Assembly (NCBI RefSeq): GCF_041361345.1
Contig: NZ_JBGKAD010000001.1
Coordinates: 2,046,001 to 2,110,000 of the forward strand
DNA from: Halobaculum sp. MBLA0147
Lineage (GTDB): Archaea; Halobacteriota; Halobacteria; Halobacteriales; Haloferacaceae
Direction of reading: 5' to 3'
DNA: 64,000 bases
The notes under the pieces were generated by a model. The model did not search any database. It was not told the DNA's origin and worked only from the letters and a program-made list of their open reading frames with translations. A program made the translations under genes and the position numbers. This document shows, in pieces, positions 16,881-20,911 of the stretch (the stretch's first letter is position 1; the number at the start of each line of letters is the position of its first letter).

Positions 16881-18398
16881 GTGACAGACACGCAGCGCAC
16901 ACGCCGGCCCACGGAACCGGACGGGTTCCACTCGCTGTCGCTCACGGACGAGACGCGAGCTACCCTCGACGTGGTCGGAACGCTCCCCGACTGGCTCTCG
17001 GGGGTGTTGCTCCGCAACGGCCCGGGGGCGTTCGAGGTCGGGGAGGCGAGCGTCGACCACTGGTTCGACGGGTTGGCGATGCCGACACGGTTCGGACTCG
17101 ACGGCGCCGCCGACCGCGTCACCTTCCGGAACCGCTTCCTCCGGACGGACGCGTTCGCCGCCGCCCGCGAGGGGGAGTTCACCGGCGGGTTCGCGACCGG
17201 CGAGACCACGCTCCGCGAGCGCCTGTGGGGGATGTTGGTCGGAGAGCCGTACGACAACACCAACGTGATCGCCGAGCGCGTCGGCGACGACTACCTCGCG
17301 TTCACGGAGACGCCACGACAGGTACAGTTCGACCCGGACACGCTCGCGACGACGGGCGACGTGACGTACGACGGCGACGTACCCAGCGGACAACTCACCT
17401 GTGCACACGCCAGACGCGACCCCGACACCGGCCGGCTCGTCACCTTCGACACGTCGTTCGGGCGCCGCCACACTTACGAGGTGTACGAGATCGTCTCGCC
17501 GACGGACCGCCGCCACGTCGCCAGCGTCGAGACGGACCAGCCGAGCTACATGCACAGTTTCGCGCTCACGCCGAACTACGTCGTCTTCACCGAGTTCCCG
17601 TACGTGGTGGAGCCGCTGGCGTTCCTCAAACCCGGCCGGCAGGGGCCGTTCGTGGAGAACTTCCGCTGGGAGCCGGATCGTGGGACCCGACTCCGCGTCG
17701 TCGACCGGGCGGACGGCACGGTCGTCGCCGAGGCGACCGCAGAGCCGTGTTTCGGTTTCCACCACGCGAACGCCTACGAGGACGGCGACGATCTCGTCGT
17801 CGACGTGGAGACCGTCCCGGACGCGGAGTCCGTCGCCACGCTCTCGTTGGACCGGCTCCGGGCGGGCGAGTTGGACGTGCTGGGCGGCCGGATCGAGCGG
17901 TTCCGGATCGACCGCGGCGGCCACCGGGAGGCGCCGACCGTCGACCGCCGGCGGCTGTACGACGGCTCCGCGCTGCCGACCGTCTCGCCGGCGCGGTGGT
18001 GTCGCCCGCACCGCTACGTGTACGCTCAGCGGACCGCACAACCGGTCACCCAGTGGCCCACCGGCGTCGTGAAACTGGACACGGAGACCGGCCGCGTCCG
18101 CGAGTTCGACGACGGTGCCGACCACTTCTCGGAGCCGATCTTCGTCCCGCGGTCGGGGCGGCGGCCCGGCCACGGCGACGGTGGTCGCGGGAGCGGCGCG
18201 AGCAGCGGTCACGGCGACTGGGGTGACACCGCCGAAGACGACGGCGTGGTCCTCACCGTCGGGCTCGACACGGACGCGAGCCGGTCCCGGCTGTTCGTCC
18301 TCGACGGTGCGGACCTCGCGGAACTGGCACGCGTCACACTCCCGCTGGCGCTGCCGTTCGCCTTCCACGGGCGGTTCTTCCCGGAACTGACTCCGTGA
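16881..18398 (+). CDS. Carotenoid oxygenase (RPE65/CCO family)
   Basis: A 505-residue member of the carotenoid cleavage oxygenase family, seven-bladed propeller enzymes with an Fe(II) held by four His. Candidate ligands are in TCAHARRDP (about 175), YMHSFALTPNYVVFTEFP (about 220), GFHHANAYEDGDDLVVD (about 290) and the C-terminal FAFHGRFFPEL. The start has the family pattern WLSGVLLRNGPGAFEVG. Retinal formation from beta-carotene is a possible role in haloarchaea, but substrate is unproven. The C-terminal region has a low-complexity Gly/His/Asp insertion near 425-450. Confidence 0.9.
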   Translation: MTDTQRTRRPTEPDGFHSLSLTDETRATLDVVGTLPDWLSGVLLRNGPGAFEVGEASVDHWFDGLAMPTRFGLDGAADRVTFRNRFLRTDAFAAAREGEFTGGFATGETTLRERLWGMLVGEPYDNTNVIAERVGDDYLAFTETPRQVQFDPDTLATTGDVTYDGDVPSGQLTCAHARRDPDTGRLVTFDTSFGRRHTYEVYEIVSPTDRRHVASVETDQPSYMHSFALTPNYVVFTEFPYVVEPLAFLKPGRQGPFVENFRWEPDRGTRLRVVDRADGTVVAEATAEPCFGFHHANAYEDGDDLVVDVETVPDAESVATLSLDRLRAGELDVLGGRIERFRIDRGGHREAPTVDRRRLYDGSALPTVSPARWCRPHRYVYAQRTAQPVTQWPTGVVKLDTETGRVREFDDGADHFSEPIFVPRSGRRPGHGDGGRGSGASSGHGDWGDTAEDDGVVLTVGLDTDASRSRLFVLDGADLAELARVTLPLALPFAFHGRFFPELTP

Positions 18399-18539: not shown

Positions 18540-19889
18540 ATGTCAGACGACAACACAGTACGGAGACGACGGTTCGTGCAGGCGGCCGGTGCCGCGGGTG
18601 TCACGGCACTGGCCGGCTGTTCCGGCGGGAACGGCGGCGGAGACGGGGACGCAACCGGGACGACGACCGGCGGGTCCGGCAGTGGCGAGGGGCCGGACGC
18701 GTTGATCGTCATCGGCTACCCCGAAGACGGGACGCAGTTGTTCCGCGACTACTACGGTGTCAGCGACGGGAGCGAGGAGATCCTCGTCCCGGACGGGCTG
18801 CGCGACGGCGCACTCCCGGCACAGGTCGGCAACGACATGGCGAACGTCACCGGCACCGCACCCGCAGCGGGCGGCCCGGCACAGGAGGCGTTCACCACCA
18901 AGTTCGAAGAGGAGTACGGCGAGTCGCCGGGCGTGTTCACCTCCCAGTCGTACGACTCCGTCGCCGTCCAACTGCTGGCGAACGCCGCCGCGGGGGAGAA
19001 CTCCGGCCCGTCGATCAGAGATCAGATGCGGCGCGTCGCCAACCCCGGTGGGATGGAGGTCACGCCGGACAACCTCGTCGAGGGGGTCGAGGCGGCCGCC
19101 AACGGCGAGGACGTGAACTACCAGGGGGCGTCGTCGGCGGTCAACTTCGACCAGAACGGCGACCCGGCGTCGGCCGCGTACGCCATCTGGACGTTCGCCG
19201 GCACGGACGAGCAGTCGACGAACACCGAGGACGTCCAGAACTTCGAGGGGGCCAACCCCGAGGGGAACGGCCCGTCCGCGGACAGCGGCCCCGGCGGGTT
19301 CGGTCGCGAGATGAGCGTCGGGATCCTGCTGCCGGAGACGGGGAACCTCGCCTCTGTCGGACAGCCGATGATCCAGGCGGCCGAACTCCCCGCGATGGAA
19401 GTCAACGAGGCGGACGTGGACCTCTCGGTGAACGCACAGGTCGAGGACACGGAGACCTCGCCGAACGCCGGGACCTCGGCCGCGAACCGGCTCGTCAACG
19501 CCGGTGTCCCGTCCGTCTGTGGGACCGCCTCTTCGGGCGTGAACGTCCCGGTCTCGAAGTCCGTCTTCATCGAGAACGAGGTCGTCGGCTGCTCGCCGTC
19601 CTCGACGGCGCTGTCGGTGACGAACCTCGAGGACGACGACTTCATCTTCCGGACGGCCCCGTCCGACCGGCTGCAGGGCCGCGTGATGGCGAAGGTCACC
19701 TCCGACCGGCTGAGTTCCTCGACTGCCGCGACGCTGTACGTCAACAACGACTACGGCCAGCAACTGTCGAACCGCTTCGCCAGCGTGTTCGAGGACACCT
19801 TCGACGGTACCGTCTTCCGACAGGTGCCGTACAACCAGGGCGAGTCGTCGTACACCTCCGTGGTGCAGGACGCACTCGCGCCGCAGTGA
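18540..19889 (+). CDS. ABC-type (LivK-like) substrate-binding lipoprotein with swapped halves
   Basis: A 449-residue lipoprotein: Tat-like RRRRF motif, lipobox LAGC (Cys27), Gly-rich linker. In the LivK family the order is SVGILLPETG... first, then the half starting PDALIVIGYP. Here the order is reversed. Residues 52-237 are the normal C-terminal half (PDALIVIGYPEDG to VNYQGASSAVNFD and FAGTDE); residues about 256-449 are the normal N-terminal half (MSVGILLPETGNLASVG to VNNDYGQQLS and SSYTSVVQDALAPQ). The two halves are joined by a Gly/Pro linker, and the gene stops where the second half should begin. This looks like circular permutation. No permease or ATPase genes are adjacent. A T-rich element at 18506-18515 may be its promoter. 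Confidence 0.85.
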   Translation: MSDDNTVRRRRFVQAAGAAGVTALAGCSGGNGGGDGDATGTTTGGSGSGEGPDALIVIGYPEDGTQLFRDYYGVSDGSEEILVPDGLRDGALPAQVGNDMANVTGTAPAAGGPAQEAFTTKFEEEYGESPGVFTSQSYDSVAVQLLANAAAGENSGPSIRDQMRRVANPGGMEVTPDNLVEGVEAAANGEDVNYQGASSAVNFDQNGDPASAAYAIWTFAGTDEQSTNTEDVQNFEGANPEGNGPSADSGPGGFGREMSVGILLPETGNLASVGQPMIQAAELPAMEVNEADVDLSVNAQVEDTETSPNAGTSAANRLVNAGVPSVCGTASSGVNVPVSKSVFIENEVVGCSPSSTALSVTNLEDDDFIFRTAPSDRLQGRVMAKVTSDRLSSSTAATLYVNNDYGQQLSNRFASVFEDTFDGTVFRQVPYNQGESSYTSVVQDALAPQ

Positions 19890-19978: not shown

Positions 19979-20911
19979 ATGACGTTGCGGGTCACCTTCC
20001 TCGGCACGAGCGGGGCGGTACCGACGGTCGAACGCGCCCCCAGTGCGATCCACGTGAACCGCGAGGGTGAGTCGCTGCTGTTCGACTGCGGCGAGGGGAC
20101 ACAACGCCAGATGATGCGGTTCGGCACGGGGTTCGACGTGGACCACCTGTTCGTCACGCACCTCCACGGCGACCACGTGTTGGGGATACCCGGTCTCGTC
20201 CAGTCGATGGACTTCAACAACCGCGACGCGCCGCTGGCGATCCACGGCCCGCCCGGGTCGCGTCGCCAGCTCCAGTCGCTGGTCCACGCGGCGGGGCACG
20301 ACCCGTCGTTCCCGGTCCGACTCAACGAGGTGACCGCCGACAGCGTGGCACTCGCCGCCGAGGAGTACGAGGTACGAACCTTCGAGACGGAACACCGCAC
20401 CACCTCCGTCGGCTACGCGCTCGTCGAGGACGACCGGAAGGGGCGGTTCGACCGGCAAAAAGCCGAAGAGGAGTTGGGAATCCCACCCGGCCCGGCGTAC
20501 GGCCGGCTCCACGAGGGGGAGACGGTGGAGTTGGACGACGGGCGCGTGATCGAACCCGAACAGGTCGTCGGCGAACCCCGACCGGGTCGAACGGTGGTCT
20601 ACACCGGCGACACGCGCCCGGTGCCGGCGACGCGACGGGTCGCCGAGGGCGCGGACCTGCTGATCCACGACGCCACGTTCGCCGACGAGGCCCGCGACCG
20701 CGCCGAGTCGACCGGCCACGCGACCGCCCACGAGGCCGGTGAACTCGCCGCCGAGGCCGGCGTGCGGCGGCTCGCGCTCACACACGTCTCCTCGCGGTAC
20801 GCGACCGACGCCGAGCGACTGGAACGGGAGGCACGTGCCGTCTTCGACGGCCACGTCGTGCTCCCGGACGACGGCCACGAGATCGAGGTGCCGTTCCCCG
20901 ACGCGGACTGA
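19979..20911 (+). CDS. rnz: Ribonuclease Z (tRNA 3' endonuclease)
   Basis: A 310-residue metallo-beta-lactamase-fold nuclease that removes 3' trailers from tRNA precursors. HLHGDH at 61-66 is the HxHxDH zinc motif. Further ligands are visible in VYTGDTRP and LTHVSSRY, and the flexible-arm region PPGPAYGRL is typical of tRNase Z. It starts MTLRVTFLGTSGAVPT at the family N-terminus (ATG 19979). tRNA genes in this window lack encoded CCA, consistent with the need for 3' processing. Confidence 0.96.
   Translation: MTLRVTFLGTSGAVPTVERAPSAIHVNREGESLLFDCGEGTQRQMMRFGTGFDVDHLFVTHLHGDHVLGIPGLVQSMDFNNRDAPLAIHGPPGSRRQLQSLVHAAGHDPSFPVRLNEVTADSVALAAEEYEVRTFETEHRTTSVGYALVEDDRKGRFDRQKAEEELGIPPGPAYGRLHEGETVELDDGRVIEPEQVVGEPRPGRTVVYTGDTRPVPATRRVAEGADLLIHDATFADEARDRAESTGHATAHEAGELAAEAGVRRLALTHVSSRYATDAERLEREARAVFDGHVVLPDDGHEIEVPFPDAD

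Follow-up and report, generated by a model that had tools for sequence, protein, structure and literature searches.

A naturally circularly permuted LIV-type substrate-binding lipoprotein of haloarchaea

The window analysed here, a 64,000-nucleotide stretch of the Halobaculum sp. MBLA0147 genome, carries a gene for a 449-amino-acid protein that is a circularly permuted type I LIV-type (Peripla_BP_6) substrate-binding lipoprotein: the usual second half of the chain comes first and the usual first half comes last. We consider it very likely that the product is a functional, membrane-tethered LIV-type amino-acid-binding protein, cut in a loop of lobe 2 and closed by an 18-residue linker. As a rule, natural circular permutants come to light only when distant relatives are compared. 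In the present case, permuted and unpermuted orthologues occupy the same chromosomal site, are 62-65% identical and share the same importer, a pair in which the effect of the permutation on folding, affinity, membrane orientation and importer coupling can be tested. The pair shows a protein before and after a natural rewiring that left its binding site in place. Automatic domain annotation returns only a split family match for such proteins, and the permutation can easily escape notice.

Exchanged halves in one intact reading frame

The open reading frame at 18540-19889 starts with ATG and runs uninterrupted in a single frame, as had been proposed in a preliminary description made from the letters of the window; its parts are listed in Table 1. 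That description took residues 52-237 for the usual second half (H2) of a LivK-type protein and residues from about 256 to 449 for the first half (H1), and alignment of each half separately gives the same swapped order. Against Pfam PF13458, residues 259-446 match profile positions 3-187 (E 4.5e-19 for this half alone) and residues 50-166 match positions 189-311 (E 1.8e-7 alone), while the whole protein scores 91 bits (E 1.4e-25) in two blocks, above the family cut-off of 31.7. In a PDB search, LIV-type proteins align to the C-terminal half, and the N-terminal half gives weaker, separate blocks; once the halves are rejoined in the usual order, the alignment to 4gnr becomes a single stretch covering query residues 6-315. 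The swapped profile blocks, the PDB blocks and the merged match after rejoining exclude a chance match or an ordinary gene. The canonical type I / cluster B topology, with the N-to-C order of LivJ/LivK, is found neither in the sequence nor in the model. The cut lies at about profile position 188 of 343, immediately ahead of 'PDALIVIGYP', and about 193 residues are moved; in the LIVBP structure we take this point to fall within lobe 2, in the loop between a helix and a strand.

Table 1. Parts of the permuted gene, in window coordinates
Feature	Position	Strand	Basis
Tat-type lipoprotein signal peptide (RRRRFVQ ... LAGC)	18540..18617	+	Direct reading; same RR...LAGC in permuted and unpermuted relatives
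Gly/Ser/Thr-rich tether, residues 27-51, ahead of the old C-half	18618..18692	+	Sequence; low pLDDT of model residues 1-22
Old C-terminal half (H2), residues 52-236, starting at P52	18693..19247	+	PF13458 profile 189-311; HMM boundaries; residue invariance
New 18-aa linker, old C-terminus to old N-terminus	19248..19301	+	Clade conservation; pLDDT
Old N-terminal half (H1), residues 255-447	19302..19880	+	PF13458 profile 3-187; 3ipc structural alignment
Tail of two residues and stop codon, in the loop that continues into H2 in unpermuted homologues	19881..19889	+	Homologue comparison

Both new ends can be read by comparison with normal-order homologues. There, H1 and H2 are separated by only 2-3 residues (e.g., ALS-ND-PDTLVVIGYP) and the chain goes on as PDxLxVIGYP, whereas the window protein ends at ALAPQ and a stop codon, exactly where the preliminary description had expected a 'PDALIV' continuation. 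At the other end, the signal peptide stayed in front, again as described: a twin-Arg motif and an LAGC lipobox, read by eye, precede the old C-terminal half and place the lipidated Cys at residue 27. The tether that follows precedes 'xRTIxxGVLLP' in normal-order homologues, and its median length (27.5 residues in permuted versus 33 in unpermuted proteins) does not clearly differ between the two forms. The old ends are joined by the linker GANPEGNGPSADSGPGGF. The description had envisaged a Gly/Pro linker at low-complexity breakpoints; the joining role holds, but the linker is a conserved and confidently modelled motif. Because GENPDGxGPSADSxPGG is conserved throughout the main permuted clade, we regard the linker as more than a low-complexity join.

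The genes flanking the permuted gene in the window encode an RPE65-family carotenoid-oxygenase-like protein (16881-18398) and an RNase Z-like hydrolase of the metallo-beta-lactamase fold (19979-20911); neither is usual beside the orthologues.

Fold, ligand site and selection

The AlphaFold2 model of the permuted protein has a mean pLDDT of 88.4 and a pTM of 0.85, with linker means of 82-94 per ten residues. Its helices and strands correspond essentially one-to-one to those of the normal-order protein L104 once the halves are swapped. LivJ/LivK structures match the L104 model over its whole length (Z 34, 332 residues); of the permuted model, only residues 230-423 align, to residues 1-193 of the 3ipc chain (Z 14). 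Foldseek and VIA-align follow chain order and report one half only for the permuted model, and we therefore read the one-half alignment as supporting permutation. One structure, 5er3 from Rhodopirellula, also a binding protein, matches both halves in chain order (model residues 21-394; Z 13.4, 245 residues, 4.4 A, 11% identity), an alignment that may come merely from the pseudo-symmetry of the two lobes or from a related topology.

Positions 79, 102, 150, 202 and 226 (LIVBP/Atu2422 numbering), which we take to be the known ligand contacts of the LIVBP family, map through the 3ipc alignment to S332, T356, Y405, Y60 and D85, respectively. All five residues are invariant in the 48 permuted sequences compared. 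The first three lie in H1, and Y60 (LIVBP 202) and D85 (LIVBP 226) lie in H2, so the site forms only if the two halves assemble. Between same-genus genomes, dN/dS is 0.09-0.15 in both halves, and both are under purifying selection. Together with the model and the invariant ligand residues, this agrees with the earlier suggestion that the protein may fold; judged from sequence and model, it should fold and bind, probably with a branched-chain or similar amino acid as its ligand. A decaying or non-functional variant would fit the few copies that are interrupted or frameshifted (L090, G083), but a dN/dS of about 0.1, the invariant ligand residues and intact frames in nearly all copies make this highly improbable.

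Distribution across genomes

We surveyed 60 related genomes and scanned a larger set of about 85,000 species genomes, and the same order recurs in both. The permuted order is present at more than 100 loci in many genera of Halobacteria, compared with about 60 normal-order homologues. A first set of homologues, scored with profiles for the two halves and including some loci duplicated between collections, comprised 91 permuted and 50 normal-order genes (n=141), each with exactly one copy of each half. Within one genus, a permuted copy occurs in 48 of 52 genomes by our own count from the survey table: 31 carry one permuted type (interrupted in 1), 17 carry the main type, 3 have the normal order only and 1 has neither. 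Both orders are also present in a further family. The non-haloarchaeal genomes of a 197-genome phylum-wide draw yielded no permuted copy and no collinear full-length match at E 1e-30.

These data bear on the possibility that the window gene is an assembly or mis-joining error. The breakpoints do lie partly within Gly-rich sequence, of the kind in which such errors could be suspected; the same order, however, recurs at more than 100 loci of independent assemblies, complete chromosomes included, and linker and synteny are conserved among the orthologues. An artefact is thus extremely improbable. The preliminary description had named an assembly error and halves aligning in standard order as findings against its reading; the independent assemblies speak against the first, and the separate alignment of the two halves of the window protein speaks against the second.

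Some genomes carry unusual copies. In Haloquadratum walsbyi J07HQW2, two permuted genes (L043 and L068) lie about 11.6 kb apart on the same scaffold, and one of them runs into unresolved bases. At G083:C2:2081030-2083870, a permuted gene appears to be split, its matches 2-373 and 366-476 lying about 1.4 kb apart, as an inserted mobile element would leave them.

Exchange in place and a proposed mechanism

The rearrangement can be followed at loci of one genus, read as Halorubrum from named relatives and the group code. A normal-order gene (L176, in genome G106) and three permuted genes (L179, L184 and L186) have flanking genes in the same order. In the DNA alignment of L179 with L176, both flanks run collinearly, with 69-85% identity, and the exchange is confined to the two halves of the gene: L179 5019-5556 corresponds to L176 5612-6137, and L179 5685-6207 to L176 5078-5603. 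That the change went from the normal to the permuted order is judged from the outgroup.

An in-frame duplication followed by partial loss would produce the permuted order. The 3' end of the linker carries tether-like residues, as such a route would leave. Haladaptatus sp. DYF46 has two permuted copies in tandem (L084 3809-5188 and 5324-6613), about 135 bp apart and so strongly diverged from each other that the duplication must be old. This pair and the tether-like linker residues fit duplication and then in-frame loss, a route that we infer, since no duplicated intermediate (H1-H2-H1-H2) occurs among the homologues examined.

Number of origins

In a tree of the rearranged halves, most permuted genes form one clade, and others fall among normal-order genes. 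The AU test rejects a single clade of all permuted rows (p-AU 0.0002), a comparison fixed independently of the tree; subgroup tests, some of which were chosen after the tree had been seen, reject joining the main clade to the L026 group (p 0.0009; 0.0056 with denser sampling) and L025 to the L026 group (p 0.0004), do not reject joining the main clade to L025 (p 0.07; with L212/L213, p 0.08), and allow L025/L212/L213 as one clade (p 0.56). Trees of H1 only and of H2 only require 5 and 6 changes, respectively, although the deeper forks of the trees have mixed support. The L026 group, from Halorubrum and relatives, has a linker unrelated to that of the main clade. Beside its breaks, SQW close to the stop and SFEA where H1 begins are as in the unpermuted L115, and VGFPQS is that of the unpermuted L127 and L137; the unrelated linker and these matches to unpermuted relatives argue against spread by gene conversion.

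We also weighed a single ancient permutation, in which the additional origins are gene conversion or tree error, or the normal-order genes are reversions. The break position, which agrees within about 3 residues in all permuted groups, speaks for it, as do the allowed union of L025/L212/L213 and the non-rejected joining to the main clade. It conflicts with the rejected monophyly of all permuted genes and of the main clade plus the L026 group, with the 5 and 6 changes in the half trees, and with the unrelated linker and unpermuted-type flanks (SFEA, SQW, VGFPQS) of the L026 group. It would also require many reversions, given the normal order of the outgroup and of all solved structures listed. 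We regard a single origin as unlikely. The comparisons favour a permutation that probably arose at least twice, once in the main clade and once in the L026 group, in the same lobe-2 loop and with unrelated linkers. Three to five origins are possible from these trees, but because joining L025/L212/L213 to the main clade is not rejected, we claim only the lower number. More tentatively, and with rather less than even confidence, at least three independent permutations may have hit one identical lobe-2 loop because shifting the lipid anchor off lobe 1 and onto lobe 2 was repeatedly useful for presentation to the importer.

Probable importer partner

The preliminary description noted that no transporter genes are adjacent. 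This is correct for the window genome and for a same-genus genome (G001), but not for most orthologues: at most loci, four genes with best matches to LivF, LivG, LivM and LivH converge on the binding-protein gene. Of 76 permuted loci, 67 have a Liv gene within 2.5 kb, as do 12 of 19 unpermuted ones, and the two forms never occur together at one locus among those examined. The window genome encodes three Peripla_BP_6 proteins alongside three Liv systems. Of these proteins, two are each linked to a Liv system, which leaves the permuted protein and an orphan livHMGF set that is complete and has no binding-protein gene (G000:C1:1579000-1583050; L204 7029-11047), about 480 kb from the permuted gene. 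Its LivF and LivG are 73-75% identical to those of Natrialba. In G001, a livHMGF set lacking a binding-protein gene likewise lies about 143 kb from an unlinked permuted gene. By elimination within the window genome and by the synteny of relatives, the permuted protein probably pairs with the distant orphan LivHMGF, an ABC importer to which it would deliver the bound amino acid. The orphan set adjoins a gene of the uridine-kinase family (L204 11804-12511), a family whose genes also lie beside the binding-protein gene in several other species.

Among haloarchaeal amino-acid-binding lipoproteins, some work with chemotaxis transducers. The permuted protein could similarly be a ligand sensor for a transducer or kinase and not a transporter subunit, with the permutation suiting receptor contact; its orphan location in the window genome and a few others would agree with such a role. 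However, convergent livHMGF genes stand beside most permuted and many unpermuted orthologues, and no transducer gene was recognised among the annotated neighbour clusters, so we consider a sensor improbable and retain the importer subunit as the preferred reading.

Position of the lipid anchor

In the normal order the lipid tether stands ahead of the first strand of lobe 1, and in the permuted order it stands ahead of a lobe-2 strand. Reading chain order against the known fold, we suggest that the main mechanical effect of the permutation lies in the lipid anchor, which would now hold the protein by the far end of lobe 2 and no longer by lobe 1. To the importer, the binding protein would then be presented with its membrane attachment on the opposite lobe.

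Comparison with known binding proteins

The permuted protein shares with the LIV-type proteins LivJ/LivK (PF13458; PDB 4gnr, 3td9, 3ipc and 4n0q) homology of both halves, the predicted secondary-structure elements and the five canonical ligand positions, and most of its orthologues lie beside livHMGF. It differs in the reversed halves, the new termini in the helix-strand loop of lobe 2, the new conserved linker and the tether before a lobe-2 strand. Its normal-order homologues (L104 of Halogranum amylolyticum, L115 of Halorarius litoreus and L176) are about 50-65% identical in each half and have the same importer neighbours; unlike the permuted form, they keep the canonical order, have the tether before lobe 1 and lack the linker.

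The open-access literature searched yielded no earlier haloarchaeal or LIV-type permutant. Treponema pallidum and its relatives provide the nearest precedent, TpMglB-2 (Tp0684), a permuted glucose-binding lipoprotein classed as 'Type Ic / Cluster Bc', in which the first three strands of the N-lobe have moved to the C-terminus and the C-lobe order is unchanged (PMC4990184). Both are natural type I permutants that are lipid-tethered and largely retain their ligand residues. TpMglB-2, however, belongs to the bacterial MglB-type sugar-binding family and is cut in the N-lobe, whereas the haloarchaeal protein is cut in the C-lobe, about mid-fold, and unpermuted haloarchaeal orthologues survive at the same chromosomal site. 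The window protein thus shares the circular permutation of Type Ic / cluster Bc but neither its strand move nor its homology; with a different cut and no sugar-binding match in Pfam, it is an analogue of TpMglB-2 and not a member of its class. The authors of that study raised tethering as a possible cause of permutation (PMC4990184), and the haloarchaeal protein would be a second independent case for this idea. Since its unpermuted relatives are tethered too, what would matter is a shift in where the tether attaches. Engineered permuted lobes of ribose-binding protein (PMC9815098) show that lobes of type I proteins can accept new termini and still fold; those constructs are designed single lobes, whereas the haloarchaeal protein is a natural, full-length permutant.
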